Below are positions 1 to 12,847 of a stretch of 13,762 nt of DNA, piece after piece (within the stretch, counting starts at the first letter, position 1; every line of letters begins with the position of its first letter). Under the pieces are notes generated by a model. That model was not told the DNA's origin. It searched no databases and saw nothing but the letters and a program-made list of their open reading frames with translations. Position numbers and translations under genes: made by a program. Location: NCBI GenBank assembly GCA_027016355.1, contig JALWAF010000038.1, positions 1-13,762 on the forward strand. The letters run 5' to 3'. This stretch comes from Candidatus Moraniibacteriota bacterium (GTDB lineage Bacteria > Patescibacteriota > Minisyncoccia > Moranbacterales > GCA-2747515).

Positions 1-2
1 CT

Positions 3-254
3 TCTGATAAAGAAATGATGAATACTGCATTACACGAAATTTCTGATTCAGAAATTTTAATAGCAGAATTGTCTTACAAAGCCGTAGGGGTTGGATTGGA
101 GGTTGGATACGCAAGGGCTCTTAATAAAAAAATCTTTTATGTGTATAAGGATACTTCTGAATATTCAAAAACTGTTGGCGGTGTTTCTGATGAAATTATT
201 GTGTATTCAAATATAAATCAACTAGAGAGAAAATTAAAAAAACAATTAGAATAG
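3..254 (+). CDS. Nucleoside 2-deoxyribosyltransferase-like protein, C-terminal part
   Basis: The frame is open from the left edge (codons from base 3) to TAG at 252-254, so only the last 83 residues are seen. The two Met codons at 15-20 are probably internal, because the frame continues upstream. The segment DSEILIAELSYKAVGVGLEV followed by GYARALNKKI matches the family core, in which an Asp/Leu-Ile-Ala-Glu strand is followed by a G-x-G-x-E-x-G-x-A helix; the Glu of GLEVGYA is the usual catalytic nucleophile. Such enzymes cleave or exchange the base of (deoxy)nucleosides, but many relatives have other N-glycosidase roles, so the substrate is unknown. The gene is convergent with recG, separated by about 50 bases with no convincing terminator. 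Confidence 0.6.
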   Translation, partial: SDKEMMNTALHEISDSEILIAELSYKAVGVGLEVGYARALNKKIFYVYKDTSEYSKTVGGVSDEIIVYSNINQLERKLKKQLE

Positions 255-304
255 TAAAAATGATAAAGTATATTATTTATAAAATTTATATCTATGATTA
301 AGTT

Positions 305-2389
305 CTATTCCATATGCACTTGCATATAAAATCTATCCAATTCTTTTTTTAGGGTTGGATATTTTTTTAGGCTATTACTTTCTAGTAGGGTATTTCGAGC
401 GTGAGTTCTGGCTAGGGTTACTAATTTTGTATTTGAAATATTTTTCATGACTCCGTCTGGCATGCCATGTTGTTGACTTCCTAAGAATTCTCCCGGTCCG
501 CGTAGTTTTAAATCAATTTCAGCTAGTTTAAATCCGTCAGAATATTTTTCCATTGCTTTTAGTCTTTGACTGTTGAAGTGGGTTGAAAATAAGAAACAAT
601 ATGATTGTTTGTCTGAGCGACCAATTCGACCTCGGAATTGATGGAGCTGAGAGAGTCCAAATCTTTCTGCATTTTCTATTATCATTGCAGTTGCATTTGG
701 TACATCTACTCCTACTTCTACAACAGATGTAGATATCAAAATTTGAATTTTGTTGTTAGAAAAATCTTGCATTATTTTTTCTTTTTCTTTGGACTTTAGT
801 TTGCCGTGCATCAATCCTAATTTGTAATCTTTAAACACCCCAGTTGATAATCGTTCAAATTCTTGCTTTACAGCCTTGACGTCTTTTAGACTTTCAGTTT
901 CTTCTACTAACGGCAAAATTATGTATGCTTGTCTGCCACTGTCTAATTCTTTTTTTATAAAATCATAAATTTTATCTGAATTGTTTGGGTGCACTAATGT
1001 TGTTTTAATTTCTTTCCTCTGAGCAGGTTTTTCATCTAGTACTGATACATCCAAATCACCAAAAAGTGCCAATGCAAAAGTACGAGGAATTGGAGTTGCT
1101 GTCATTGTCAAGAAATGTGGAACAGTGGATTTGTTGCCATCATTACTTTCAATTGCTTTTTGAGTTAGTTTCGCTCGTTGTGCTACACCAAAACGATGTT
1201 GTTCATCTACTACTATGAGAGTTAAATCTTTAAAAGAAACATCTTCTTGTATTATTGCATGTGTACCTATAATCAAGTCCAATTCACCTAATGATATTTT
1301 TTTTAACATTTTGGCTCGTGTTGTGCTTTGGATAAGCGCTGGGTGAGAGCCATAGATTTTGTACGCTCCAGTGAGTAAGCCCATATTATAATCATATTTT
1401 TGAAAAAGTTGTAAAAAACTGTTGAAATGTTGAGAAGCTAAAACTTCAGTGGGAGCTAAAATTGCTACTTGATGCCCAGCACTAAGCACTTGAAGAGTAG
1501 CAATGGCTGCAACCAAAGTTTTACCAGCACCCACATCACCATTTAATAGTCTATTCATCGGAGTTGGCGTACTCATATCTTTGAGGATTTGAAATGAGCT
1601 AGTTCTTTGTGCATTTGTTGGTTCAAAAGGCAATGTTTGTATAAAGTTTTTTATTAATTGTTCATCAATTGGTACTTTAGTAGCTCTTTCTTTAGCTAGA
1701 GATGCTCGAGAGCGTAGGGTGATAAGTTGTAAAATAAACATTTCTTCAAACATAAATCGTTTTGTAGCGTAAACTATTTCTTCATTGTTTTTAGGAAAAT
1801 GTATAAGACGTAGGGCATCTGCAAGTGTGGGCAGTTTTAATTCTTTTCGCACTGTATCTGGTAGCGGATCTGGAAGTTCTATATTTTGTTCACGTATGAG
1901 CTGTATCTGCCACCGCAGCCATTTGGAAGTTATACCAGCAGTTTCTGGGTAAATAGGCACAAGTCGTCCAGTGCTGGTGGGTGTGCGTTCCAATCTTTCT
2001 ACATTTGGTGAATTAAAATGTAGTCCATTTTTTGCATTAGTTGTGAGTTTACCACTTATGCGTAGTACATTACTAGTTTTGAGTTGTTGCTCTATGAATT
2101 GCTGGTTAAACCACACAGCACCCACACTTCCTGTATCATCAGTAAAAGTTGCAGTTGTAATGGTCAAATGTCTACGAGGTATGCGGATAGTTTTTACATC
2201 TGATACTTGAGCGGCAATCGTAGCGTTAGTGTCTGTTTCTAGTTCAGTAATATCATAGATATGTGAAAAGTCCTCATAACGAGAAGGGAAATGATATAGT
2301 AAATCGCGCACGGTTAACAGCCCAAGCTTTTCTAATTTTTTGGCATGTGACGCTGAGATGCGAGTAAGTTTATCAAGTTTTGTGTCCAT
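305..2389 (-). CDS. recG: ATP-dependent DNA helicase RecG
   Basis: RecG remodels stalled replication forks and branch-migrates Holliday junctions. The protein of about 694 residues is the usual length. It begins with a helix-hairpin-like start and a wedge/OB region (roughly residues 1-150), followed by two helicase lobes. Visible motifs are GDVGAGKT (Walker A, near residue 285), VVDEQHRFG (DEQH box), TMTATPIPRT (motif III), STSVVEVGVDVP (motif V), HQFRGRIGRS (motif VI) and the RecG C-terminal signature RGPGEFLGSQQHG. I chose ATG at 2389; ATG at 2398 and TTG at 2404 are in-frame alternatives adding 3 or 5 residues. No SD precedes any of them. An extended -10 box lies only about 10-20 bases upstream, so the mRNA would be almost leaderless. 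The stop is TAG at 305-307. Confidence 0.97.
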   Translation of the reverse strand: MDTKLDKLTRISASHAKKLEKLGLLTVRDLLYHFPSRYEDFSHIYDITELETDTNATIAAQVSDVKTIRIPRRHLTITTATFTDDTGSVGAVWFNQQFIEQQLKTSNVLRISGKLTTNAKNGLHFNSPNVERLERTPTSTGRLVPIYPETAGITSKWLRWQIQLIREQNIELPDPLPDTVRKELKLPTLADALRLIHFPKNNEEIVYATKRFMFEEMFILQLITLRSRASLAKERATKVPIDEQLIKNFIQTLPFEPTNAQRTSSFQILKDMSTPTPMNRLLNGDVGAGKTLVAAIATLQVLSAGHQVAILAPTEVLASQHFNSFLQLFQKYDYNMGLLTGAYKIYGSHPALIQSTTRAKMLKKISLGELDLIIGTHAIIQEDVSFKDLTLIVVDEQHRFGVAQRAKLTQKAIESNDGNKSTVPHFLTMTATPIPRTFALALFGDLDVSVLDEKPAQRKEIKTTLVHPNNSDKIYDFIKKELDSGRQAYIILPLVEETESLKDVKAVKQEFERLSTGVFKDYKLGLMHGKLKSKEKEKIMQDFSNNKIQILISTSVVEVGVDVPNATAMIIENAERFGLSQLHQFRGRIGRSDKQSYCFLFSTHFNSQRLKAMEKYSDGFKLAEIDLKLRGPGEFLGSQQHGMPDGVMKNISNTKLVTLARTHARNTLLESNSLKKYPTLKKELDRFYMQVHME

Positions 2390-2407
2390 TGTAATCATAC
2401 ACAAACA

Positions 2408-2416
2408 AGTATATCA
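2408..2416 (-). promoter_or_regulatory. Extended -10 promoter of recG
   Basis: Read on the minus strand, TG-A-TATACT lies directly after the T-tract of the upstream terminator. Transcription would start near 2401, giving a leader of 0-12 bases depending on which recG start is used. I see no good -35, as expected for an extended -10 promoter. Confidence 0.55.
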
Positions 2417-2467
2417 CAAAAAAATAAAAAAGAGGCAATTCGGAAACAGTTGTTTCTGAATTGCCTC
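2417..2467 (-). terminator. Strong intrinsic terminator of the two-gene DksA-like unit
   Basis: Arms 2432-2448 and 2451-2467 are complementary over 17 bases with one G-U pair. The terminal A-T/C-G pairs would open to form a small loop. On the minus strand the hairpin is followed by an almost uninterrupted T-tract (2417-2431). It lies 19 bases after the stop of the 2486-2977 gene and separates that unit from recG. Confidence 0.9.
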
Positions 2468-2485
2468 AGGAGAGTATCCCGCCAT

Positions 2486-2977
2486 TTATTTTGGGAGGCA
2501 GGCAGGACACTCAAGCGAAAGATTTTTAAGTATGTCTGCAACAGACACTTCGTTGTTGCAGTTAGGATTGTCGCACTTGCCATCCCAACCCTCCAAGTCG
2601 AGATAGTTTATTATTGCAACAATTGTTTTTTTGTCCCTAACAGATTTGGCAAGTGCCAACTCTGTTTTGAGACGATTGATTAGCATTCTTTTTTTGTGTG
2701 CAATCACATCAGGTTTGATGTGAATTACGCCAAAGAAGTTCCTGGTTATTTCTGAAATAAATTTTTTTGTTTCAGCTTTGCGAGATATTTTTATCTTACC
2801 GCAAGGCTGGAAACAAAACCTTGTTGCTGTGAACTTCTCCGCACAAGCAACCTTGTGACCACAACAACGTGACAACTCATTATCGAGAAAAGATATATCA
2901 CCCTCAGGTGCACCTTCCACAACGATTTTTGTCACAATTCTGTTGTGATCAAAAAATATTGTTAAAGTAGGTCTCAT
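2486..2977 (-). CDS. Cys-rich protein with DksA-like zinc-finger tail
   Basis: This is a 163-residue protein I do not recognise as a whole. ATG at 2977 is chosen because AAAGGAG (2987-2993) sits 9 bases upstream and directly abuts the stop of the preceding gene; the frame is open further up to 3067, but that would overlap the preceding gene. Residues 1-35 look beta-rich. Residues 38-59 hold five Cys (38, 39, 45, 55, 59) and a His (41), a possible metal site. Residues 66-130 are mostly helical and basic. The tail (130-163) has Cys 135, 140, 157 and 160 (C-x4-C, 16 residues, C-x2-C). It matches the tail of its neighbour: G-[RK]-C-x-N-x2-C-x-N, then A-x-I-L, then C-x2-C, preceded in both by a KS[LV] helix. 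The neighbour's acidic D-x-x-D tip is not evident here. It could be a partner or decoy of the DksA-like neighbour. Function is inferred from the shared module only. Confidence 0.75.
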   Translation of the reverse strand: MRPTLTIFFDHNRIVTKIVVEGAPEGDISFLDNELSRCCGHKVACAEKFTATRFCFQPCGKIKISRKAETKKFISEITRNFFGVIHIKPDVIAHKKRMLINRLKTELALAKSVRDKKTIVAIINYLDLEGWDGKCDNPNCNNEVSVADILKNLSLECPACLPK

Positions 2978-2986
2978 TCTATATGA

Positions 2987-2993
2987 CTCCTTT
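2987..2993 (-). promoter_or_regulatory. Ribosome binding site AAAGGAG of the 2486-2977 gene
   Basis: The site directly touches the TAA stop (2994-2996) of the upstream gene and lies 9 bases before ATG 2977. This decides the start and suggests coupled translation of the two genes. Confidence 0.85.
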
Positions 2994-3380
2994 TTACTGT
3001 GCACATTTAGCACATAAGGGTGAGAAGTCACTTCCGAGTATGCGTGCAAGTAGTATATCATTGTCACATGCTTTATTGCGACAACGGCCTGTGTATTCTA
3101 CTGAAGAGGCAAAATTGATGAATGCTTCCATTCGTTTTAATCGCTCACATAGACTTTTTGATATTGCAACTTGTTTTAATATACGTTCTTCACCTTTAGA
3201 TTTGTCACCTTCGTCTCCAGCAAGTGTATTAATTTTGTGAAATTTTAATTTATTTTTTTCAAGCTGCTTCGATACTTCTGTGTAACACCGTCTGGCTTGT
3301 CGTAGAACTATAAACAAACCGATGTTTTGTCCATGTAATTCTTTCATTGAAACTGCACCGACTATGCCTTTTGAATGCAT
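2994..3380 (-). CDS. Divergent DksA/TraR-like RNA polymerase-binding protein (putative)
   Basis: The product has 128 residues. Its C-terminal half fits DksA in register. An acidic tip D56-x-x-D59-x-S61 followed by Glu-Glu corresponds to DksA D71-x-x-D74-x-A76. Then comes a helix, and zinc ligands C100, C105, C123 and C126. The tip-to-first-Cys distance is 44 (43 in E. coli DksA) and second-to-third Cys is 18 (18 in DksA). Ile109 and Arg113 sit at the DksA positions C-x3-I-x3-R. The first Cys pair is C-x4-C rather than C-x2-C. Residues 22-52 are helical and would form the first coiled-coil arm. Known family members insert the coiled coil into the RNA polymerase secondary channel and tune initiation, often with ppGpp; that role is inferred here. 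The start is fixed by AAGAGGAG 7 bases before ATG. It is the first gene of a two-gene unit with its own promoter and terminator. Residues 1-20 are unfamiliar. Confidence 0.68.
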   Translation of the reverse strand: MHSKGIVGAVSMKELHGQNIGLFIVLRQARRCYTEVSKQLEKNKLKFHKINTLAGDEGDKSKGEERILKQVAISKSLCERLKRMEAFINFASSVEYTGRCRNKACDNDILLARILGSDFSPLCAKCAQ

Positions 3381-3387
3381 GTCAAAT

Positions 3388-3395
3388 CTCCTCTT
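3388..3395 (-). promoter_or_regulatory. Ribosome binding site AAGAGGAG of the DksA-like gene
   Basis: A strong SD lies 7 bases upstream of ATG 3380. It contrasts with the SD-less starts of the surrounding housekeeping genes. Confidence 0.85.
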
Positions 3396-3430
3396 AAAAA
3401 TTGTTAAATAAAAACCTCTAAACTAGCGTT

Positions 3431-3459
3431 ACTATAGCGTTTTTGCATCATTTTGTCAA
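3431..3459 (-). promoter_or_regulatory. Near-consensus sigma70 promoter of the DksA-like unit
   Basis: On the minus strand, TTGACA (3454-3459) is followed by a 17-base spacer and TATAGT (3431-3436). It has the best consensus match in the window. Transcription would start near 3424, giving a leader of about 44 bases carrying the SD. Confidence 0.85.
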
Positions 3460-3506
3460 TTAAAAATACTGTACTTTCTAGTTTATTTATGTATAATGAT
3501 GCTTTG

Positions 3507-3515
3507 TGGTATTAT
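3507..3515 (+). promoter_or_regulatory. Extended -10 promoter of dus
   Basis: TGG-TATTAT lies within the context TTTGTGGTAT, also seen before the gene at 9371. An overlapping TATAAT lies at 3513-3518. The predicted start is about 10 bases before the ATG, with no SD. Confidence 0.5.
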
Positions 3516-3532
3516 AATAATAAATATATTTT

Positions 3533-4492
3533 ATGATTACAAAAGGTTTTTGGGGAAAATTAAATAAGCCGTTTTTTTCACTTGCACCGATGTACGATGT
3601 TACGGATGCTGCTTTTCGGCGTATTATTGCTAAATATTCAAATCCCGATGTTATTTTTACAGAGTTTGTGAGTGTGGATGGTCTTGTTCATCCTGTGGGA
3701 CGAGAAAAGTTGGCACATCATCTGTGGTTTGATAAAAGTGAAAAACCAATAGTAGCACAAGTGTTTGGAATTAAACCTGAAAATTTTTATAAAGGAGCAG
3801 AGCTGTGTAGGAGTTTAGGCTTTGATGGGATTGATATAAATATGGGTTGCCCTGAAAAAAACATAGTTAAACAGGGTACAGGATCAGGATTAATTTTGGA
3901 TCCAGCACTTGCTAAGGATATTATCGTAGCGACAAAAGAAGGTGCTGGTGAAATGCCAGTGAGTGTAAAAACTAGAATTGGTTTTAATAAAGAAGAGATT
4001 AATGATTGGTTGCCAAATATCTTGGAAAGCGGTATAGCACACCTAACTATGCATTTGCGTACTCGTAAAGAGATGAGTAAAGTACCAGCTCACTGGAATT
4101 TGATGGAGCGGGTTATTGCGTTGCGTGATGACATACAAAAAGAAACTTTGATTTCAGGAAATGGAGATGTTACAACAATTGCGCAAGGTAAAAAGTTAGC
4201 ACAAGAAACTGGTTGTGATGGAATTATGATAGGGCGAGGCGTTTTTGGTAATCCGTGGCTATTTAATGATAAAGTAATAAATGTTTCCGTGGAAGAAAAA
4301 TTAAAAGTCATGGTGGAGCATACACAGTTATATAGTGAACTTTTTACAGGAGTGAAGAATTTTGCAATAATGAAAAAACATTACAAAGCATATGCAAATG
4401 GATTTGAAAATGCAAGTGTACTCAGAGCAAAATTGATGAACACAAATAATGCTCAAGAAGTTGCAAATATTGTAGATAAATTTTTAAAATAA
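3533..4492 (+). CDS. dus: tRNA-dihydrouridine synthase (DusB-like)
   Basis: This FMN enzyme reduces specific uridines in tRNA to dihydrouridine. The 319-residue protein has the TIM-barrel and family motifs in order: SLAPMYDVTDAAFR (N-terminal, flavin-contacting), FTEFVS, VAQVFG, then DINMGCPEKN with the catalytic Cys106, VKTRIGF, the HLRTR segment (H-x-R family position), SGNGD and GIMIGRGVFGNPWLF (phosphate binding). A helical tRNA-binding tail follows (about 240-319). The glycine-rich loop after the catalytic Cys reads QGTGSGLILDP, close to the usual G-A-G-A-A form. ATG at 3533 is the first start in the frame after the promoter. No SD is present. Length and motifs are normal; the Dus subtype and target position cannot be fixed from sequence alone. 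Confidence 0.93.
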   Translation: MITKGFWGKLNKPFFSLAPMYDVTDAAFRRIIAKYSNPDVIFTEFVSVDGLVHPVGREKLAHHLWFDKSEKPIVAQVFGIKPENFYKGAELCRSLGFDGIDINMGCPEKNIVKQGTGSGLILDPALAKDIIVATKEGAGEMPVSVKTRIGFNKEEINDWLPNILESGIAHLTMHLRTRKEMSKVPAHWNLMERVIALRDDIQKETLISGNGDVTTIAQGKKLAQETGCDGIMIGRGVFGNPWLFNDKVINVSVEEKLKVMVEHTQLYSELFTGVKNFAIMKKHYKAYANGFENASVLRAKLMNTNNAQEVANIVDKFLK

Positions 4493-4515
4493 AAAATATT
4501 AATCTTTAAAAATAC

Positions 4516-4540
4516 AAAAACTCCTAAAAAGGGAGTTTTT
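4516..4540. terminator. Bidirectional intrinsic terminator between dus and tRNA-Gln
   Basis: AAAAACTCC (4516-4524) pairs perfectly with GGAGTTTTT (4532-4540) around a 7-base loop. The A and T ends provide a T-tract in both directions, so it can end both dus (+) and the tRNA transcript (-). Confidence 0.8.
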
Positions 4541-4547
4541 GAAAATG

Positions 4548-4619
4548 TTGCCCGGGTAGGGATCGAACCTACGCATCGCGGGATCAAAACCCGCTGCCTT
4601 ACCGCTTGGCTACCGGGCA
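4548..4619 (-). tRNA. tRNA-Gln (anticodon UUG)
   Basis: A 72-nt cloverleaf can be drawn completely. The acceptor is TGCCCGG/CCGGGCA (7 bp), the D arm has a 3-bp GCC/GGC stem, and the anticodon stem GCGGG/CCCGC encloses loop TTTTGAT, giving anticodon TTG. The variable loop is 5 nt, the T stem is GTAGG/CCTAC with loop TTCGATC, and the discriminator is A. The 3' CCA is not encoded, so it must be added by a CCA-adding enzyme. It lies between dnaX and the shared terminator, but has its own promoter. Confidence 0.96.
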
Positions 4620-4641
4620 CTATTGGTAGCACGTGATTTTT

Positions 4642-4670
4642 ATAATACACTAATCTTTATTTTTTTTCAA
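4642..4670 (-). promoter_or_regulatory. Promoter of tRNA-Gln
   Basis: On the minus strand, TTGAAA (4665-4670), a 17-base spacer and TATTAT (4642-4647) place the start near 4634, about 15 bases before the mature tRNA 5' end. Confidence 0.7.
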
Positions 4671-4727
4671 GTGCAACATAAGATGGTTAAATGGTATAAA
4701 ATGATTAATGTTATTATTTAAATTTTA

Positions 4728-6311
4728 TCATTCAGTAACTGTATTAGCACCCATAATTTGTGCTGCATATGATAGTAATTTAGAAGACTCTATTTTTTCT
4801 TTCTTATTAAGTACAATAACCTCAATTTTTAAAGGTAAATCAAATGTATTTTGTATAATATTTTCTATCAAGGATTTGTTTTTTGTTTGCAAGATTCTAT
4901 CCTGATAAAATGAAAATGTTGTAGTAAGTACAATTGATTTTGATGTTATTTCTTTTACATTACACTGTAAAAGAAGATGAGATAGTGATTTATTTTGAGA
5001 TTCTATTTGTGTTAAGCATTTTTTCCAGACAACTTGCTTATTTGTAGAAATATTTGATGTTGTCTCAGGGACTTCATTTAAAGTGCTATTTGAATCGGTC
5101 GTTTGTGTTTTTTTAGTTACATCTTGCTTTGATGAAGATGTCTTTACTTGATCACTAGTGGATTTAGTGTCTGTTTTTTGCGACTTTGATTTAGGGTTGC
5201 TTTTTGTTTTTTGTGATTGTGTGAGTTTATTGCAAATATTTACAACGGCTTCTTCTAGTGGAAGTTGAGGGATTGTAGTATTCTTTGTTTTTTGTAAAGC
5301 TGTAATGCATTCTTCTATCATAATAACTACAGAAGATGAGGTAGTGTGTTCGGCATTATCTTGTAATATATTCATTTCTGATTTTGGTATAGATATCAAA
5401 TCCTTTACATTTTTTTGTTCAGTGCTGATAGATAAAAAAAGTACAATACGTAATTTTTCTATTATTGAACGAATAAATGTTTCCATATTATAGCCATCAT
5501 AAACAGTTTTATTGATTGTTTTTAATCCTGTCTCGATATCAGAATGTACCAATGCATCAATAAAATCTAATATATTGGCAGATGTTGTTGTGCCAAGTAT
5601 TTTGGAAACTTCTTCAGCTGTGACCTGATTATCTTCTAATGCAAACACTTGAGCCAATAAACTCTCAGCATCTCTCATTCCACCATCTGCAGCGATAGCT
5701 ATCATTTCCAAAGCTTCTGAAGAAATTTTAATTTTTTCTTTTTTTGAAATTTGTGAGAGTTTTTTAATGATGGTATCAACATTAAACCTTGCAAAATCGA
5801 AACGTTGACATCGTGAGAGAATTGTTTGAGGCACTTTGTGAATTTCAGTTGTTGCAAGAATAAAGATTGCGTGTTCTGGGGGCTCTTCAAGAGTTTTGAG
5901 AAGGGCATTAAAAGCATTTGTGGAAAGCATGTGTACTTCATCAATTATATATACCTTGTACTTTGCTTCTGTTGGGGTTACTCCGATTGTTTCTTTAAGG
6001 GTGCGAATATCATCTACTCCCGTATTTGAAGCAGCATCAATTTCTATAATATCCATCGAAGTACCATCTATGAGGCGTTGTGCCACCTCTTTTGAGACAA
6101 CTTCGAAATTTGCACGTTCTTGAATATTAACTGCCACAGCAAATAGGCGAGCAACTGTAGTCTTACCTGTGCCACGTGGACCAGTAAATAAATAAGCATG
6201 CCCAATTCGATTTTGGTTAATTGCATTTTGTAAGGTTGTAACTATGTGACTTTGTCCCAGTACGTCGTCAAATGTTTGAGGTCTGTATGTTCTATATAAA
6301 GTCTTTGACAT
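4728..6311 (-). CDS. dnaX: DNA polymerase III subunit gamma/tau
   Basis: This is the clamp-loader ATPase of the replisome. The 527-residue protein has GPRGTGKT (Walker A, 44-51), DIIEIDAASNTGVDDIR (87-103), IIDEVHMLS (Walker B, 122-130), LATTE (sensor 1) and SRCQRFDF (SRC box, 166-173). A lid domain and helical collar follow to about residue 365. A Lys/Ser/Thr/Gln-rich linker spans about 370-425, and a small alpha/beta C-terminal domain spans about 430-520. Between Walker A and the EIDAAS motif the usual zinc-binding cysteines (P-C-G-x-C...C) are absent; the stretch 60-86 has no Cys. Without a visible frameshift site, only a tau-like product is predicted. ATG at 6311 has no SD. The stop is TGA immediately followed by TAA. 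Confidence 0.95.
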   Translation of the reverse strand: MSKTLYRTYRPQTFDDVLGQSHIVTTLQNAINQNRIGHAYLFTGPRGTGKTTVARLFAVAVNIQERANFEVVSKEVAQRLIDGTSMDIIEIDAASNTGVDDIRTLKETIGVTPTEAKYKVYIIDEVHMLSTNAFNALLKTLEEPPEHAIFILATTEIHKVPQTILSRCQRFDFARFNVDTIIKKLSQISKKEKIKISSEALEMIAIAADGGMRDAESLLAQVFALEDNQVTAEEVSKILGTTTSANILDFIDALVHSDIETGLKTINKTVYDGYNMETFIRSIIEKLRIVLFLSISTEQKNVKDLISIPKSEMNILQDNAEHTTSSSVVIMIEECITALQKTKNTTIPQLPLEEAVVNICNKLTQSQKTKSNPKSKSQKTDTKSTSDQVKTSSSKQDVTKKTQTTDSNSTLNEVPETTSNISTNKQVVWKKCLTQIESQNKSLSHLLLQCNVKEITSKSIVLTTTFSFYQDRILQTKNKSLIENIIQNTFDLPLKIEVIVLNKKEKIESSKLLSYAAQIMGANTVTE

Positions 6312-6343
6312 ATACGATATTTTACATTAAATATAATGCATGT

Positions 6344-6352
6344 ATTATAGCA
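6344..6352 (-). promoter_or_regulatory. Extended -10 promoter of dnaX
   Basis: On the minus strand, TGC-TATAAT predicts a start about 26 bases before ATG 6311. No clear -35 is seen. This gives dnaX its own promoter, although it follows the GtrA-like gene by only 57 bases. Confidence 0.55.
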
Positions 6353-6368
6353 TATTTTTAGTAAATAT

Positions 6369-6998
6369 TTATTTTTTGAATACAAATAATTTATAACCTA
6401 AGAAATTCCATACTAATGAAGCAAGTGTTGCGCAGGCTGCTGCAATATTTGCAAGTTGTTCGGGTGTGACAACTGTTGTTTTGTGAAATATAAATATGAT
6501 AAGTGACGCTAAAGACACATTAATAACAAAACCGATCACACTAATACTTATAAAGCGACCAACTTCTTTTGTGTTTGATTTTTCTTTTGAATTAAATGTC
6601 CAGTATTTATTCCAAAAATAAGCAGCAATCGTTGCTAGAATAAATGAAGTAGATTTAAAAATTGAAAAACCAATGCCAGCAGTGATGCCTGTTATTAGTA
6701 TTAAAAAATTTAATACACCCCAATCTAAAAATGTGTTAAAGGCTCCGACTGCCGCAAATTTTGCAATTTGAAAAATAATAGGTATATACTTTGCAATTAA
6801 TGCTGCAATTCCAAGTGCTATATTTGCAAAAATTACAAAAAATAGTATTAATAAAAGAATACTTACAAATGTAATTTCTATTGGAGAAATATTTAAGTTT
6901 ATAATTATAGGTATAGATAATAAAGCAAAAGAGGCGCCAATAATTGACACCAAATAAAAATCTATACGACTAATTTGCAAGTGCTTTGTAGTTGTCAT
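6369..6998 (-). CDS. GtrA-like membrane protein with two extra N-terminal helices
   Basis: The 209-residue protein is very hydrophobic. Residues about 14-35 and 42-68 form two membrane segments that are not part of the usual GtrA unit of about 120-140 residues. The GtrA-like domain (about 76-208) has four further segments and the family hallmark FWNKYWTF (128-135), with a second aromatic motif WNFLGYKLFVFKK at the C-terminus. GtrA family proteins act in the membrane in transfer of lipid-linked sugars or assembly of cell-surface polysaccharide, often as presumed flippases for polyprenyl-phosphate sugars; the substrate here is unknown. It starts 11 bases after the stop of the 7010-7879 gene with no SD, so the two are almost certainly co-transcribed. 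Confidence 0.85.
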   Translation of the reverse strand: MTTTKHLQISRIDFYLVSIIGASFALLSIPIIINLNISPIEITFVSILLLILFFVIFANIALGIAALIAKYIPIIFQIAKFAAVGAFNTFLDWGVLNFLILITGITAGIGFSIFKSTSFILATIAAYFWNKYWTFNSKEKSNTKEVGRFISISVIGFVINVSLASLIIFIFHKTTVVTPEQLANIAAACATLASLVWNFLGYKLFVFKK

Positions 6999-7009
6999 AT
7001 ATTGTGTTG

Positions 7010-7879
7010 TTAGTCAGTTTGTTTCATTTCTGCTTGAATTTCTTTTTCAATTTCTTCAATGTTTGGTACCCACTCATCAATAATATCAGCTCCAGCTGGA
7101 TTTTCATCATCATCTTCCGTATTAGTGTTTTCTATTGTTGAGGCAGTATCAGAATCTAAAGAATCGTCCTCTGTAGTATATTCTTCTTCAGTTTCATCAA
7201 CAATATCATGTCCAAAATCGGCTTCTGTCTCTGATGTTCCAGTGAGAATTTCTGTTGCTGTTTTTGGTTCTGAGGATTCTTCGATATCAGTATCAGTTGA
7301 GGTAGCAGTGTCAATTACAGGAGCTACTCCAGTGCCATCACTTTGTTGCAAGACAGCTTCAATTGCAGCCCATTGAGCATTTTCATCCTGAGCGGTTACA
7401 ATTGCCACTTGGTCACCTGGTTGGACATCAAAATATGTAATTGATGCTAAAAGTACTTTATAGGGCTTGCCATCTACTGCTACAAAAAAATTTCCATTTG
7501 CATCCTGACCTACAATGCCAATTTTATTTTGTCTTGGTGTCGGACCAATTTGCTTATAAATAAAAGATCCATCCCCAACAATTGTAAGTTTTAAAAGGTC
7601 GCCCTCAACAAGTTTTGATTTGGATGCATAATTTGCTGGAATAGGGTACTGTTTTCCGTCCGTACCTATCATAACTTGACCATCAAATGTACCTTGCACA
7701 ACATTACCTTCTTCCTCCTCAACTTTTTTTCTCCTGCCAACTTTCTTTTTTCCTTCAAGTTGAAGAAGCATAGCTTTTGCACTTTGCATAGTTTGCTCTG
7801 CTGTGGTAATCATATCACGAAGGGATTGTATTTTTTGTTCCTTTTCCTCTTTGGAAAGGCTGTTAGTTTCATCAGTCAT
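7010..7879 (-). CDS. Coiled-coil protein with beta-rich core and acidic tail (unknown function)
   Basis: This 289-residue protein resembles uncharacterised proteins I associate with Parcubacteria. Residues about 9-44 form a charged amphipathic coiled coil. A basic patch, KKKVGRRKK, sits at 44-52. Residues about 60-115 have a Gly/Asp-rich beta pattern (GTFDGQVMIGTDGKQYPIP, NYASKSKLVEGD), and residues 117-175 hold what looks like a second, related beta unit (GIVGQDANGNFFVAVDGKPY, then VQPGDQVAIV). Both repeat a DGKxY motif followed by an xxGD turn. Residues about 190-289 are low complexity and strongly acidic (Asp/Glu/Thr/Ser). There is no signal peptide or membrane segment. The basic patch and acidic tail would suit nucleic-acid or ribosome association, but this is speculation. 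It leads an operon with the GtrA-like gene. Confidence 0.8.
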   Translation of the reverse strand: MTDETNSLSKEEKEQKIQSLRDMITTAEQTMQSAKAMLLQLEGKKKVGRRKKVEEEEGNVVQGTFDGQVMIGTDGKQYPIPANYASKSKLVEGDLLKLTIVGDGSFIYKQIGPTPRQNKIGIVGQDANGNFFVAVDGKPYKVLLASITYFDVQPGDQVAIVTAQDENAQWAAIEAVLQQSDGTGVAPVIDTATSTDTDIEESSEPKTATEILTGTSETEADFGHDIVDETEEEYTTEDDSLDSDTASTIENTNTEDDDENPAGADIIDEWVPNIEEIEKEIQAEMKQTD

Positions 7880-7908
7880 ATTTTTTTATATTTTTATTTT
7901 ATATATAT

Positions 7909-7937
7909 ATTATATAGTATAAAATAGAATGTGACAA
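7909..7937 (-). promoter_or_regulatory. Sigma70 promoter of the 7879-6369 operon
   Basis: On the minus strand, TTGTCA (7932-7937), a 17-base spacer and TATAAT (7909-7914) predict a start near 7902 and an A/T-only leader of about 23 bases before ATG 7879, without SD. Confidence 0.75.
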
Positions 7938-8009
7938 ATTATATTTATATTGCATTCACTTGTATAATACGAGTTTAGAAATTATTTTATTTCACAACCT
8001 TTCTTTTTT

Positions 8010-8030
8010 ACACTATATATTGTATAGTGT
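8010..8030. repeat. Perfect inverted repeat in the divergent control region (candidate operator)
   Basis: ACACTATA and TATAGTGT form perfect 8-base arms around TATTG. A further half-site-like GATAGTGTGT follows at 8047-8056. The dyad lies between the divergent promoters and just upstream of the miaB -10 at 8062-8067, a position suited to a repressor. It lacks a T-tract in either direction, so it is unlikely to be a terminator. Confidence 0.5.
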
Positions 8031-8061
8031 CAAGGACATACTTATTGATAGTGTGTAAAAT

Positions 8062-8067
8062 TATAAT
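8062..8067 (+). promoter_or_regulatory. -10 box of miaB
   Basis: TATAAT lies 17 bases before ATG 8085, giving a leader of about 10 bases. The -35 is weak (TACTTA, 8039-8044). An alternative upstream -10, TG-TATAAT (7961-7968), would give a leader of about 110 bases containing the dyad. Confidence 0.5.
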
Positions 8068-8084
8068 ATGCAATACTTAATATT

Positions 8085-9290
8085 ATGAAGAAAATTTTTA
8101 TTAAAACATTTGGTTGCCAACAAAACGTTGCCGATTCTGAACGTCTAGTGGGATATTATATAGCGCGTGGCTATAAACAAGTACAATCAGAGAATTTTGC
8201 TGACCTTGTAGTTATTAATACTTGCATGATTCGTGATATGGCAGAAGAGCGAGTATATGGATATATTCGTAATCTCAAGAAAAAAGCTAAAAAGGAGAAA
8301 AAACAACAAAGAATTATATTGACAGGATGCATTGTTGGGGCAGTAGCTCGTGAGCCAAGTGGTGTCATGAAAAAGAAATTAGAAAAGAGAATTCCTGATG
8401 TGGAATTAATGCCCATAGAAGAAGTTGGATTTGAATATGAGCCACAAAGAAAAGATAAAAAGCATGCATGGGTTGTTATATCTAATGGATGTAATAATTA
8501 TTGTACATTTTGTATTGTACCATTTGCAAGAGGAAAGGAGGTTTCAAGACCATATAATGAAATCATGAAAGAAGTGCAAAAATTAGCTAAAGAAGGTTTT
8601 ACCTCTATTACATTATTAGGACAAAATGTAAATTCATACGGTTCAGATTTAGTTTTATCTCAAAAAGAAAATGAACAAAAATTTTATGAATTACCAAATG
8701 GAAAAAAGGTTGAACCGATAATGGTTAGTCATTTAGGACGAACTCGAATACCAACATTATTTCCTTTTCTTTTGGACGAAGTAGCAAAAGTTGAGGGCAT
8801 AAAAACAGTTACATTTACAAGTTCAAATCCTTGGGATTTTTCAGATGAGCTTATAGATGTAATTGCACAAAATAAAAATATTGATAGATTGTTACATCTC
8901 CCAGTGCAATCTGGAAGTGATAAAATAATCAAAAAAATGAACCGATGGTATACGTCTGATGAATATATACGATTAACAGAAAAAATTAAAGAGAAAGTTG
9001 AAAATGTGCAATTTGTAACAGATATAATTGTCGGATTTCCAGGTGAAACAGAAGCAGATTTTCAAAAAAGTGTAGAATTATCAAAAAAAGTTGAATTTGT
9101 AAGGGCATTTATTGGTTGTTATTCACAGCGTCCAGGAACATTAGCATCAAAAGAAATGCCAGATACAGTAGAGTGGGAAGAAAAAAAGAAGAGATGGCAT
9201 ATATTAAATGATCTTATTAATAAACCAAATTTAGGAGTAAGTGAGTCAAAAGATTGGATAAGAACAAGAGATAAATATAGTGTTAAATAA
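8085..9290 (+). CDS. miaB: tRNA 2-methylthioadenosine synthase MiaB-like, without TRAM domain
   Basis: MiaB adds the 2-methylthio group to N6-isopentenyladenosine-37 in tRNAs reading UNN codons. The N-terminal UPF0004-type domain has Cys11 (KTFGCQQN), Cys47 (NTCMIR) and Cys81 (LTGCIVG), which bind one 4Fe-4S cluster. The radical-SAM motif C136-x3-C140-x2-C143 (GCNNYCTFCIVP) binds the other. RGKEVSRP and LLGQNVNSYG favour MiaB over RimO or MtaB. An insertion of about 30 residues (near 191-222) precedes the second half of the barrel (LHLPVQSGSD, IVGFPGETEADF, SQRPGTLA). The protein ends at 401 residues with a short polar tail. The TRAM domain expected after about residue 375 is missing, and nothing resembling it lies downstream. 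The start has no SD. No miaA is in the window. Confidence 0.88.
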   Translation: MKKIFIKTFGCQQNVADSERLVGYYIARGYKQVQSENFADLVVINTCMIRDMAEERVYGYIRNLKKKAKKEKKQQRIILTGCIVGAVAREPSGVMKKKLEKRIPDVELMPIEEVGFEYEPQRKDKKHAWVVISNGCNNYCTFCIVPFARGKEVSRPYNEIMKEVQKLAKEGFTSITLLGQNVNSYGSDLVLSQKENEQKFYELPNGKKVEPIMVSHLGRTRIPTLFPFLLDEVAKVEGIKTVTFTSSNPWDFSDELIDVIAQNKNIDRLLHLPVQSGSDKIIKKMNRWYTSDEYIRLTEKIKEKVENVQFVTDIIVGFPGETEADFQKSVELSKKVEFVRAFIGCYSQRPGTLASKEMPDTVEWEEKKKRWHILNDLINKPNLGVSESKDWIRTRDKYSVK

Positions 9291-9330
9291 AATAGTTTGT
9301 AAAATTCAAAAATTCTATAGAAAAATTTTG

Positions 9331-9339
9331 TGGTATACT
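9331..9339 (+). promoter_or_regulatory. Extended -10 promoter of the exonuclease-desulfoferrodoxin operon
   Basis: TGG-TATACT is preceded by TTT, giving the same TTTGTGGTAT context as at dus. It predicts a start near 9346 and a leader of about 25 bases with no SD. Confidence 0.6.
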
Positions 9340-9370
9340 AAATAGTGTAAGTGTTTAATATATTTTGTAG

Positions 9371-9904
9371 ATGAATGATAAAAAGTTTTTGCAGCCATTT
9401 TCTGATGATGTTGTGTTTTTTGATGCTGAATTTACAGGGCATGACATACAAAAAGATGTTTTGATGTCTATCGGTATGGTGTCATTGGATGGTAGTAGAG
9501 AAATGTATTTTGAACTTGAATATGATAAAGAGCATGTTAGTCAATGGGTACAAGAACACGTTGTGCCATATTTGACACAAGATAAAATTTCTCGTCAAGA
9601 AGCGCGTCAAAAAATTCGAGAATTTTGTGGCAAAAGTGAGCCACATCTTGTTGCAACAGTCAATCAATATGATATGGCATTCTGGCACAAATTATTCAGC
9701 GGTGAAGATGAGCCAATTCATCCTATTCCGATTGATTTTGCATCAATGCTTTTTGCAATAGGTTTAAATCCTGCTAGAGAAATTAATGGTGAAAAAAAGA
9801 AGTTTTTTGCACAATTTGGAATTGATACAGATAGATTTCAAATGCACAATGCTTTAGATGATGCACGTCTCATGCGTGAATTATATGTAACTCTTGTAAA
9901 ATAA
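9371..9904 (+). CDS. DEDDh 3'-5' exonuclease, Rv2179c-like
   Basis: The 177-residue protein has the RNase H-like exonuclease residues of the DEDDh class: D18 and E20 (FFDAEFTG, ExoI), D101 (NQYDMAFW, ExoII) and H159/D164 (HNALDDA, ExoIII). The SIGMVSLDGSREMYFE strand pair and the WVQEHVVPYL segment resemble the Rv2179c-like 3'-5' exoribonuclease group (DUF5051) more than oligoribonuclease or DNA polymerase III epsilon. It probably trims RNA or short oligonucleotides with two metal ions; the substrate is inferred. It is followed 18 bases later by the desulfoferrodoxin gene in an apparent operon. ATG at 9371 has no SD. Confidence 0.85.
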   Translation: MNDKKFLQPFSDDVVFFDAEFTGHDIQKDVLMSIGMVSLDGSREMYFELEYDKEHVSQWVQEHVVPYLTQDKISRQEARQKIREFCGKSEPHLVATVNQYDMAFWHKLFSGEDEPIHPIPIDFASMLFAIGLNPAREINGEKKKFFAQFGIDTDRFQMHNALDDARLMRELYVTLVK

Positions 9905-9922
9905 TTATTAACAACAAATTTT

Positions 9923-10303
9923 ATGACAGAAAAAAACCAATTATATCGCTGTTCTATATGCGGTAATATTGTAGATGTTCGCCACGGGGCTGCTGGAGAA
10001 CTAGTGTGTTGTGGTAAATCAATGGATTTGCTTAGTGCAAATACACAAGATGCAGCAACAGAAAAACATGTGCCAGTAGTTACTCGTACTGGGGAAGGCA
10101 TTGAGGTACGTGTTGGTGAAGTTGATCATCCAATGAATGATGATCATTATATAGAATGGATTACCCTTGTTACTCAGAACAAAACAAAGACAATATATCT
10201 TGCTCCAGGTGATGAACCTAAGGCGATATTTAAGACAACAGCAGAAAGTGGTGTCGTGTATGAATATTGTAATTTGCATGGATTATGGAAAATTGAGATA
10301 TAA
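9923..10303 (+). CDS. dfx: Desulfoferrodoxin (superoxide reductase, two-iron type)
   Basis: It reduces superoxide to hydrogen peroxide without making oxygen, as oxygen defence in anaerobes. The 126-residue protein is full length. The N-terminal desulforedoxin domain has C10-x2-C13 and C29-C30 for the Fe(Cys)4 centre I. The catalytic domain has the centre II ligands H49 (EKHVP), H69 (DHPM), H75 (DDHYIEW), C116 and H119 (YCNLHG). E47 and K48, which guide superoxide in characterised enzymes, are kept. No rubredoxin or other electron donor is in the window. It sits 18 bases after the exonuclease gene and has no SD, so it must rely on the shared transcript and an SD-independent start. Confidence 0.97.
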   Translation: MTEKNQLYRCSICGNIVDVRHGAAGELVCCGKSMDLLSANTQDAATEKHVPVVTRTGEGIEVRVGEVDHPMNDDHYIEWITLVTQNKTKTIYLAPGDEPKAIFKTTAESGVVYEYCNLHGLWKIEI

Positions 10304-10314
10304 AATTTTATATA

Positions 10315-10343
10315 TTGCGATAAACTTCAAAGCATTGTATAAT
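10315..10343 (+). promoter_or_regulatory. Sigma70 promoter of the KH-protein gene
   Basis: TTGCGA (10315-10320), a 17-base spacer and a perfect TATAAT (10338-10343) predict a start near 10350. Confidence 0.8.
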
Positions 10344-10349
10344 AATAAT

Positions 10350-10449
10350 TGGAAGAGTGATACTCATTAAATGAGCGTTAAAAAGATGAGGTCGTAAGCG
10401 CCATGAGGATTATTTCATCCATATAATTCAGTTAAGCAGAAATTACGTT
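10350..10449 (+). promoter_or_regulatory. Leader of about 100 nt of the KH-protein gene (possible structured RNA)
   Basis: This long leader contrasts with the 10-30 base leaders of most genes here. It has a perfect CTCAT-TAA-ATGAG hairpin (10363-10375), a GATGA...TCATC pairing (10385-10389 with 10415-10419), and within that a GGAT/ATCC hairpin (10407-10410 with 10417-10420) that would compete with the outer pairing. It contains no start codon in frame with the gene and no SD. A cis-regulatory role, perhaps autoregulation by the RNA-binding product, is inference. Confidence 0.4.
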
Positions 10450-10791
10450 ATGGAACGAGATGCACAATTTGTCGAGGAAGTAGTAAAAATGCTTGTTGAC
10501 AATCCAGACGACGTAAAAGTTGATCGTAAAGTTGACGAGATGGGTGTACTTATTTCTCTTGATGTAAATCAAGAAGACATGGGTATGGTTATCGGTCGCG
10601 AAGGTTCTACTGCAAAAGCATTGCGAACTCTACTACGCGTAGTAGGAGCACGCAACAATGCACGAGTAAACCTAAAGATCAATGAGCCAGAAGGTTCTGA
10701 ACGCCCAGCTCGCAAAGAAGAGAGTGGAGCTGAAGAAGGTGAAAAGGAACAAAAAACTCTGGACGAAGTTGTTGGAGATATTGAAATCTAA
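10450..10791 (+). CDS. khpA: KhpA-like KH-domain RNA-binding protein
   Basis: This small RNA-binding protein is of the KhpA/YlqC type. The KH domain (residues 1-80) has the order expected for this family: FVEEVVKMLVDNPDDVKV, a beta strand, DMGMVIGREGSTAKALRTLL with the GxxG loop at 49-52 (G-R-E-G), and a final strand VNLKI. A charged tail (81-113), rich in Glu and Lys, extends beyond the usual length of about 80 residues. Its base composition is visibly more GC-rich and its codons more C-ending than its neighbours, suggesting strong expression. In many bacteria khpA follows rpsP; here it stands alone with its own promoter, leader and terminator. KhpA proteins often pair with KhpB, which is not in the window. 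Confidence 0.88.
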   Translation: MERDAQFVEEVVKMLVDNPDDVKVDRKVDEMGVLISLDVNQEDMGMVIGREGSTAKALRTLLRVVGARNNARVNLKINEPEGSERPARKEESGAEEGEKEQKTLDEVVGDIEI

Positions 10792-10823
10792 AAATCTCAA
10801 GGTAATAAAAAGTATTATCTTTT

Positions 10824-10860
10824 ACAAAAGTCATTTAGCAATAAGTGACTTTTGTTTTTT
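10824..10860 (+). terminator. Intrinsic terminator of the KH-protein gene
   Basis: ACAAAAGTCA (10824-10833) pairs with TGACTTTTGT (10846-10855) around a 12-base loop, followed by a T-run to 10860. Confidence 0.88.
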
Positions 10861-10863
10861 GCA

Positions 10864-10892
10864 TTGATTTTATTTGATATTTTTGTTAATAT
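10864..10892 (+). promoter_or_regulatory. Candidate promoter of the zinc-ribbon membrane protein gene
   Basis: TTGATT (10864-10869), a 17-base spacer and TAATAT (10887-10892) predict a start near 10899. The region is very AT-rich, so this is only a moderate match. Confidence 0.5.
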
Positions 10893-10898
10893 AAACCA

Positions 10899-11043
10899 TC
10901 AATCTGAATAGGTCGGATTGTTAAATGAGTCTTATAGTGGCACGATCTACTTGAGAATGTGAACACGTGCATTGCGCATGATATCACCGACAAGATTTGT
11001 GACGTGACCATGAGACAAAATTTTATTTTAAGGAGGTGTCACA
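10899..11043 (+). promoter_or_regulatory. Long leader with hairpin before the zinc-ribbon membrane protein gene
   Basis: The leader of about 145 nt is GC-richer than its surroundings. A 7-bp hairpin (10900-10906 with 10914-10920, one G-U pair) lies at its 5' end. CACGT (10974-10978) and ACGTG (11012-11016) could pair around an inner region. No good reading frame is seen in it. Its role is unknown; a riboregulator or just an untranslated leader are both possible. Confidence 0.35.
11030..11037 (+). promoter_or_regulatory. Ribosome binding site AAGGAGGT
   Basis: A perfect SD complement lies about 7 bases before ATG 11044 and fixes that start. It is the strongest SD in the window. Confidence 0.92.
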
Positions 11044-12066
11044 ATGACACGAAAAAGTTCTTTGATAAATTGGTTTGTAGATTTTTGCAAAAGATGCTTT
11101 GCAAAAAAGTATGCGACAAAGGCTGGAGGCAAATCTCCAAGTACACATAATTGGAGAGTATGCCCTGAGTGCAAGGAGTATGTTTGGGCATTTTTGTTTA
11201 ATAAGGATAAAGTCCGATGCGACCGTTGCAATGCGGTGTTGGGGGTAAAAAAACCGACAGCATTTTGTAGTTGTGGTGCTGCCACTCATATGGCATGTAC
11301 AGATCCTTATTGCACAAAGTGCAAAAAGGAATTACCCTCATTGGTAATGGAATATAAAGACAAAAAAGGTAGAATATTTACACTGCTCAAACCATTGTAT
11401 GATCCACGTATTTCTTTGTGGACTATTTTTACGATAATATTAATGATGTGTATGACGAGTGTTTATCATTTTGTCAAGATTCCTTATGGTTTTTCTGTTG
11501 GACAAAGTAATTTTTTGTTGTGGTACATTGCTACTTTTAATTTGTTCGCTTACCTTTTATATTATGTGACACGTTCTGTAAATAATCACATGAAATTTGT
11601 GCCATTATTGATAATAATTTTTGGTGCTATATTAATAGCAACATTATTATTTTGGGCAATGCCAATAAAATATTCAACGCGTGCATTATCACCGCGCTGG
11701 GTGCATGTGCCAACAGAGCAGGAATGGCAACAACAACAGTTGGCGGAAATAGATGCTTTGGAACCCGGTTTAGCTCAGTTTGAATTGGCTCATAAGCTTA
11801 AAAGTGTGAATTGGCGACCATATTATGTTGCTGCCGCAAAAGTTGATTTTGAAGGTTTGATGCGGAAGTACGGTTCATATGCAAATCAATTGGACCCATG
11901 GCATGGAGCACAATTCTTTCCACTTTTAAATAAATATTTAGAATCTTTGAGTCAAGATGAATTGATAAGACAGTGCTGTGATGATCCATGGAATGTGATT
12001 TTTACACCTCTGTCAGTTCAGAGATTTAGCACTGTTGTCACTGCATGTGATAACATCATGCCATAA
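11044..12066 (+). CDS. Zinc-ribbon membrane protein of unknown function
   Basis: This is a 340-residue protein I do not recognise. The N-terminal about 100 residues hold two zinc-ribbon-like units: C40-x2-C43...C59-x2-C62, and C75-x-C77...C85...C90-x2-C93 with H82. An extra C15-x2-C18 lies in a basic helix before them. Three membrane segments follow (about 125-146, 156-177 and 184-206). A C-terminal soluble domain (about 215-340) is rich in Trp, Gln and Leu, with W-containing motifs (WRPYYVAAAKVDFEGLM, DPWHG, DDPWNV) and a Cys pair at 311-312. With three membrane spans, the ribbons and the C-terminal domain should lie on opposite sides; the basic zinc end is probably cytoplasmic. It is a single-gene unit with its own promoter, long leader, perfect SD and strong terminator. 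A stress-sensing or protein quality role would be a guess. Confidence 0.8.
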   Translation: MTRKSSLINWFVDFCKRCFAKKYATKAGGKSPSTHNWRVCPECKEYVWAFLFNKDKVRCDRCNAVLGVKKPTAFCSCGAATHMACTDPYCTKCKKELPSLVMEYKDKKGRIFTLLKPLYDPRISLWTIFTIILMMCMTSVYHFVKIPYGFSVGQSNFLLWYIATFNLFAYLLYYVTRSVNNHMKFVPLLIIIFGAILIATLLFWAMPIKYSTRALSPRWVHVPTEQEWQQQQLAEIDALEPGLAQFELAHKLKSVNWRPYYVAAAKVDFEGLMRKYGSYANQLDPWHGAQFFPLLNKYLESLSQDELIRQCCDDPWNVIFTPLSVQRFSTVVTACDNIMP

Positions 12067-12079
12067 TATCGTAACTTTG

Positions 12080-12114
12080 AAGACTCTTTCTGTAGTGCAG
12101 AAGGGGTCTTTTTT
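12080..12114 (+). terminator. Intrinsic terminator of the zinc-ribbon membrane protein gene
   Basis: Arms 12080-12092 and 12098-12110 pair over 13 positions, two of them G-U, around loop TAGTG, followed by a T-run to 12114. The T-run leads straight into the next promoter. Confidence 0.9.
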
Positions 12115-12115
12115 G

Positions 12116-12124
12116 TGTTATAAT
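12116..12124 (+). promoter_or_regulatory. Extended -10 promoter of the nucleotidyltransferase-yvcK operon
   Basis: TGT-TATAAT has a perfect -10 and starts 2 bases after the terminator T-run. It predicts transcription from about 12131, with a 26-base leader and no SD. Confidence 0.65.
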
Positions 12125-12156
12125 TATAGTCTAATTTTAAAACTATATCTTAAAAT

Positions 12157-12837
12157 ATGTATTGTGTGATTTTAGTTGCAGGACTTGGAACTCGTATGGG
12201 CGCATTAACAAAAGATTGCCCCAAACCAATGCTCAAAATTAAAGATAAACCAAAACTAGCATATAGTATTGAGATGCTACCAGATGAAATAACTGATGTT
12301 GTTTTGGTTGTGGGATATTTAAAAGAACAAATAATTGATTATTTTGGTAATAATTTTGATAGGAAAAATATTCATTTTGTAGAGCAGAAAGAATTTAATG
12401 GTACAGCAGGTGCAGTAAGCCTAGTGCGTGACATTGTGAATGACAAAACGCTTGTTATTATGGGAGATGATTTATATTGCAAAAAAGATTTAAAAAAATT
12501 GATGCAGTACAATCAATCTCTACTTGCTTATGAAACAAATCAGGCAGAGAGATTTGGTTTGGTTGATGTGGATAAAGATAATAATCTATTAAATGTAATA
12601 GAGCGTCCACACGATAAAATTAAAGGATTGGTAAATACTGGAGCATATGTGCTTAGTAAGGAATATTTTGATGTTGAGATGGTTCAGATTTCTCAGAAAG
12701 AATATGGATTGCCACAAACGCTAGTATCAATGTATCCAGAAGTAAAGACAAAAGTAGTAACAACAAAAAAGTGGCAATCAATAGGTTCACCAGAAGATTT
12801 AGAAATCGCACAAATAAGAATTGATGAATTTATATAA
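12157..12837 (+). CDS. Sugar-1-phosphate nucleotidyltransferase family protein
   Basis: The protein belongs to the RmlA/GlmU-type family, which makes NDP-sugars from NTP and a sugar 1-phosphate. The 226 residues cover a single catalytic domain with no left-handed beta-helix or acyltransferase tail. Motifs are VAGLGTRM (7-14, nucleotide loop; the usual Gly-Gly is reduced to Gly-Leu), CPKPML (21-26), NGTAGA (81-86), GDD (103-105, metal-binding Asp) and VNTGAYVL (159-166). The C-terminal motif reads WQSIGSPEDL (206-215), where RmlA-type enzymes have Asp-Thr/Val-Gly after the Trp; the second metal-binding Asp thus appears replaced by Ser. Its sugar and nucleotide cannot be told from sequence. It shares an operon with yvcK (10-base gap). 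No SD is present. Confidence 0.85.
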   Translation: MYCVILVAGLGTRMGALTKDCPKPMLKIKDKPKLAYSIEMLPDEITDVVLVVGYLKEQIIDYFGNNFDRKNIHFVEQKEFNGTAGAVSLVRDIVNDKTLVIMGDDLYCKKDLKKLMQYNQSLLAYETNQAERFGLVDVDKDNNLLNVIERPHDKIKGLVNTGAYVLSKEYFDVEMVQISQKEYGLPQTLVSMYPEVKTKVVTTKKWQSIGSPEDLEIAQIRIDEFI

Positions 12838-12847
12838 TAACTAAATT

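Follow-up and report, generated by a model that had tools for sequence, protein, structure and literature searches.

A DksA relative directly before a tipless sister gene in one genus of small-genome bacteria

Why should two adjacent genes of a bacterium with a small genome encode proteins that end in the same DksA-like tail? The genes lie in a 13,762-nucleotide (nt) stretch of Candidatus Moraniibacteriota bacterium (assembly GCA_027016355.1, contig JALWAF010000038.1, positions 1 to 13,762), which we call the window and which belongs to genome G000 (1.16 Mb in 189 contigs). Gene 1 (2994..3380, minus strand) encodes a DksA/TraR-family protein of 128 amino acids (aa), with a coiled coil, a DxxDxS tip, and a four-cysteine (C4) finger; gene 2 (2486..2977, minus; 163 aa, ATG at 2977) combines an alpha/beta domain with a short helical hairpin and a DksA-type finger. 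Both sit between genes that we take to be dus (3533-4492, plus) and recG (305-2404, minus). One genus thus has a DksA relative directly before a sister gene, and the two may form a two-part transcription regulator. The reading that we tentatively prefer, at a probability of about 0.42, is that gene 2 would be a tipless, DksA-derived modulator made in step with gene 1 and acting at the polymerase rim or on gene 1 itself.

A tail common to two adjacent genes

A first-pass annotation of the window had proposed that the open reading frame (ORF) at 2486-2977 repeats the DksA-like tail of its neighbor, and the sequence bears this out: G-[RK]-C-x-N-x2-C-x-N, A-x-I-L, and C-x2-C are common to both proteins, with KSL in gene 1 and KSV in gene 2. 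The similarity exceeds chance. BLASTP aligns gene 1 with gene 2 at 6e-7 over ~60 residues; in searches of their own genome, gene 2 retrieves gene 1 at E 0.002 and gene 1 retrieves gene 2 at 5e-4; and the score of the pair was reached by 0 of 5,000 shuffles of gene 1, and again by 0 of 5,000 with cysteines masked. When the two families are compared as profiles, hhalign returns 2.9e-7 with a probability of 93%. The gene-1 alignment and profile consist of five rows, including the copies from G000, G002, G004, and G005 and the protein P0009, which is 95% identical to gene 1 and was the one protein found when a protein collection was searched with the window copy alone. Scored singly against other copies of gene 1, the window's gene 2 was equaled by none of 1,000 shuffles for P0009 and G005, by 14 for G002, and by 26 for G004; the single-pair scores against the last two are weak, so significance there comes from the profiles. 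By these comparisons, the C4 finger of gene 2 is homologous to the DksA-type finger of gene 1.

The origin of the tail was approached with a profile of gene 2 residues 86-163, run against the five gene-1 rows and 757 ORFs from DksA-bearing loci of the order, those that hold gene 1 and gene 2 in the genus included. Gene 2 itself heads the ranking; next come gene 1 of G005 (25.3 bits), G000 (23.0), P0009 (22.6), and G004 (13.2), followed by a protein from another genus (L173, 12.8) and gene 1 of G002 (11.9). If duplicate entries of the gene-1 rows are set aside, all remaining ORFs, other DksA-type proteins included, score at most 9.5 bits. Four of the five gene-1 rows outscore every other sampled DksA-type protein of the order, and the fifth falls just under one. 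Because the gene-1 rows top this ranking, local duplication is favored, without proof, with gene 1 as the probable parent of gene 2.

The two fingers of the window also share a detail of spacing, C-x4-C in the first knuckle (3066-3083 and 2558-2575), where gene 1 of G002, G004, and G005 has C-x2-C. All five gene-1 rows have the four cysteines, and the spacing, as read from sequence only, is C-x4-C in two rows, both of the window lineage, and C-x2-C in three. The C-x4-C common to both window tails may reflect convergence or exchange between the tails.

Two unlike relatives of DksA

Gene 1 is, by its motifs and profile matches, a DksA-family protein. The five-row profile matches DksA (PDB 1tjl) at E 4.7e-9 over profile positions 18-125, most of its length, and 11 columns of the alignment are invariant, among them D56, D59, S61, and the four finger cysteines. 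The acidic tip (3198..3215, minus; D56-E-G-D59-K-S61) reads DxxDxS in 5/5 rows, with both aspartates retained and serine for alanine relative to DxxDxA; it lies 42 to 44 residues before the first cysteine of the finger (3003..3083, minus; C100-C126), so that the coiled coil is long. Library matches are weaker. The window copy alone finds only NF033459 (E 0.022) and has no match to PF01258; TIGR02420 matches the orthologues of G002 (6.6e-7) and G004 (3.4e-6), and PRK10778 that of G005 (1.2e-5), all below the curated cut-offs; and PF01258 matches one of four copies, that of G002, at 19.3 bits versus a cut-off of 24.9. The C-terminal helix that would follow the finger is absent from window gene 1, whose chain stops two residues past the last cysteine; gene 1 of G004 and of G005 has short extensions there. 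This helix is described for TraR/DksA in the portion of PMC9239242 consulted, with variation among homologues; we do not count its absence as decisive against gene 1 as a DksA/TraR protein.

Gene 2 begins with an N-terminal domain (2711..2977, minus; residues 1-89) whose predicted fold is beta-beta-alpha-beta-beta-alpha-beta (in the predicted model, strands at 4-9, 14-21, 42-50, 53-59, and 84-89 and helices at 25-39 and 67-77). There follow a short helical hairpin (2594..2707, minus; helices at 91-109 and 113-128) and the C4 finger (2498..2575, minus; C135, C140, C157, and C160), the latter invariant in 12/12 homologues. The lack of an acidic tip, claimed from the window copy in the first-pass annotation, extends to the family: DxxDx[AS] occurs in 0 of the 12 homologue rows, in which the distance from D90 to W131 is 41 to 43 residues (nine rows) or 62 (three rows). 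Without a long coiled coil that ends in an acidic DxxDxA tip, gene 2 is not classed as a DksA. The same annotation had seen a new cysteine-rich domain at the N terminus. Five cysteines and a histidine are indeed present in the window copy (C38, C39, H41, C45, C55, and C59), but they are lost in relatives, on which ground we reject a metal site there, and the domain is predicted to be alpha/beta instead.

Pfam, NCBIfam, PHROGs, and PADLOC gave no significant match for gene 2 (in Pfam none at E<=10, with HMMER filters on), and three scans of viral contigs confirmed no relative. Searching PDB sequences with the gene 2 profile gave short receptor matches only, at E 0.25 or worse, which we take as chance. 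Predicted residues 1-90 were overlaid on the eIF1/aIF1 (SUI1) fold, with no sequence match to PF01253: gene 2 does not match it at E<=10, and a SUI1 search of G000 was also empty at E<=10. On a reading that we hold doubtful, gene 2 would work away from RNA polymerase, its tipless hairpin and finger serving as a scaffold and its alpha/beta domain acting elsewhere, for example, at the ribosome, as the eIF1/aIF1-like fold might suggest.

A locus of changing content

We ran the gene-2 profile (A2) and the gene-1 profile (A3) on 128 genomes of the order, six of them in the genus. At E<=0.01, A3 matches 46/128 genomes, as expected for a widespread family; matches better than 1e-38 are limited to 4/128, all in the genus and all members of the profile itself. 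At the same threshold, A2 matches 6/128, of which we take G000, G002, and G003 as real, all within the profile itself. The match in G005 is the tail of its gene 1, and marginal matches in G027 and G035 were dropped because they contain stops.

Within the genus, the dus-recG site holds gene 1 and gene 2 in G000 and G002, gene 1 and a second gene lacking the finger in G004 and G005, gene 2 alone in G003, and a lone 190-aa ORF in G001 (L022 764-1333, minus), which ends shortly after W-D-I-C, as if its finger had been lost. The A3 profile found no gene 1 elsewhere in G001 (92% complete) or G003 (93% complete). Kinship to gene 2 was not provable by hhalign for the ORF of G001 or for the second gene of G004 or G005, and with a hidden Markov model, 77, 13, and 306 of 1,000 shuffles, respectively, did equally well; by eye, the order of hydrophobic stretches in these proteins is like that of the gene 2 N-terminal domain. 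The expectation that the two genes would occur together is borne out to the extent that four of the six genomes have a two-gene unit; it fails in G003, and in two of the units (G004 and G005) the second gene is an unproven homologue.

Where there are two genes, they are closely set. The first-pass observation that the Shine-Dalgarno motif touches the gene 1 stop codon is correct: AAAGGAG follows directly on the TAA within the 16-nt junction (2978..2993, minus) that leads to the gene 2 ATG. The gap is 19 nt in G002; in G004 and G005, the two genes share 14 and 8 nt, respectively. Such an arrangement would suit translational coupling. DksA works as a monomer, and it is unlikely that gene 1 and gene 2 form a single obligate heteromeric secondary-channel factor, in which gene 1 would supply the tip and gene 2 the sensor, joined by their similar fingers or hairpins. 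The close or overlapping genes of all four units and the similarity of the tails would fit such a factor; the monomeric action of DksA tells against it, as do the gene-2 homologue kept in G003 where no gene 1 was found and the history of the locus in G000 and G002.

Between these two genomes, dus is 93% identical, gene 2 79%, and gene 1 40% (aa for gene 1). Fourfold-degenerate third positions are equal at 87/112 sites in dus, 39/49 in gene 2, and 6/18 in gene 1, and the probability of six or fewer equal sites among 18 at the dus rate is 7e-5. When the DNA alignment is cut into blocks of 100 columns, identity is 90 next to dus, 43 to 55 across the leader and gene 1, and 78 to 92 in gene 2, where the final block is short. 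This low identity of gene 1 between conserved flanks makes a replacement of gene 1 in one of the lineages probable, on few sites; an apparent exchange of gene 1 past a gene 2 that stayed 79% identical argues against the tight coevolution that an obligate heteromer would imply. The drop in identity is abrupt, from window position 2997 to about 3435 in alignment with L021 (G000 versus G002), with the flanks conserved, and resembles allele replacement.

The changing content of the locus (pair, lone gene, or finger absent) could also mean that it is a site of decaying or quickly replaced DksA duplicates and that gene 2 has no dedicated function. Pairwise identities lend themselves to this idea, being 17 to 40% for gene 1 and the second genes (one gene-2 pair, at 79%, apart) versus 69 to 93% for dus. 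We nonetheless judge it distinctly unlikely, given intact frames, four finger cysteines kept in all gene-2 homologues, and ratios of nonsynonymous to synonymous substitution (dN/dS) between G000 and G002 of 0.20 (NG86) or 0.32 (YN00) for gene 2 versus 0.08 or 0.04 for dus, by which selection on gene 2 is present but relaxed. (For gene 1, dS by NG86 is 5.4, which is saturated.) Candidate signals at either end of the unit likewise speak against decay. Upstream of gene 1 lies a promoter-like site (3431..3459, minus; TTGACA-17-TATAGT, 11/12 consensus matches, a pattern match only), the best of seven such sites in 2300-3600, where shuffles give 4.1 +/- 2.2, so that its position rather than the number of sites backs it. 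Between gene 2 and recG, a terminator-like hairpin is followed by a T run (2432..2467, minus; z -4.4 over 2400-2485), with matching sequence in G002; the hairpin is missing from the list of the pattern scan that gave the promoter-like sites. Elsewhere in the window are a tRNA-Gln (TTG) gene (4547-4619, minus) and a 126-aa ORF (9923-10303, plus), presumably a desulfoferrodoxin-type iron protein by its appearance.

Other DksA-like proteins are found away from this site. All six genomes of the genus hold one beside a gene that we take to be lspA-like (L055 = G000:C48 and L056-L060), as do L062-L064 of the same family; finger cysteines are absent from the genus copies, and the best library match of the G000 copy is yteA (5e-17). 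In three genomes of other families of the order (L155, L159, and L166), the copy in the lspA neighborhood has finger cysteines. For three other zinc-bearing DksA paralogues of the family (L156, L157, and L173), no gene-2-like neighbor is seen by eye among ORFs of at least 85 codons in the surrounding stretch covered. In G007, of another genus of the family, a finger-bearing DksA/TraR-like protein lies at an unrelated site (L061 689-1159, plus).

A proposed role, set against known systems

Under the modulator reading, gene 1 would enter the secondary channel of RNA polymerase by its acidic-tipped coiled coil, with the zinc finger at the channel rim. Gene 2 would descend from a DksA-type protein, probably gene 1 itself, and would have gained the N-terminal alpha/beta domain and lost the acidic tip, the hairpin becoming short as well in the window lineage. 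Produced in step with gene 1, it could bind the same rim, or gene 1, through the retained finger, with the N-terminal domain as a sensor or adaptor. Given the DksA features of gene 1, the two might plausibly act together at RNA polymerase. As excerpted here, PMC9239242 describes the tip aspartates of DksA as essential for function and dispensable for binding, and two DksA-type proteins without DxxDxA and other features as not acting like DksA; on this precedent, gene 2, with a finger and no tip, would most simply be a binder that modulates or competes. A more elaborate version, which we regard as highly improbable, joins a DksA-like effector and a tipless DksA-derived partner in a two-protein secondary-channel system; the effector would be exchanged between species and the partner kept, the eIF1-like domain of the partner tying control of the polymerase to the ribosome or another signal.

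Among the literature matches listed, no title or abstract opening described a paired DksA system in Patescibacteria, and none concerned a tipless DksA-derived protein with an alpha/beta domain directly behind a DksA-family factor. Among the systems close to the pair, E. coli DksA (PDB 1tjl; TIGR02420, PF01258) shares with gene 1 the D-x-x-D-tipped coiled coil, the 42- to 44-residue distance from tip to finger, and the C4 finger, and with gene 2 a hairpin plus C4 finger. Gene 1 departs from it in the serine of its tip, in library scores under the curated cut-offs, and, in the window, in the C-x4-C first knuckle and the missing C-terminal helix; gene 2 has no acidic tip, 23 to 25 residues from turn to finger, and an extra N-terminal domain. 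The globular part of another E. coli protein, Rnk, is not a DksA finger. As an analogy only, Rnk may nevertheless work as gene 2 would: in the part of PMC4598747 drawn on, its hairpin is too short for the active site and its globular part is kept. TraR and its phage homologues, as far as the extract of PMC9239242 goes, use a DxxDxA-type motif and a C4 finger at the secondary channel, as gene 1 might; TraR, however, is 73 aa long and carries the motif close to its N terminus, whereas the coiled coil of gene 1 is longer and gene 2 has no such motif. Pseudomonas resembles the window genome in holding two DksA paralogues, DksA1 and DksA2, but DksA2 is zinc-free and can replace DksA1 (PMC9213440, in part), while gene 2 keeps the finger cysteines and has no tip; G000, moreover, has its copy without finger cysteines at the lspA-side locus. 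Paired paralogues and a short-coil competitor (Rnk) are, in these partial sources, already known, and secondary-channel factors appear in them as single proteins in competition for a common site (PMC9239242, PMC4598747). If the reading is true, a factor of the DksA family would, through joint synthesis with a tipless sister, have a partner or antagonist built in, and the pair would offer a handle on polymerase control in a small-genome bacterium.
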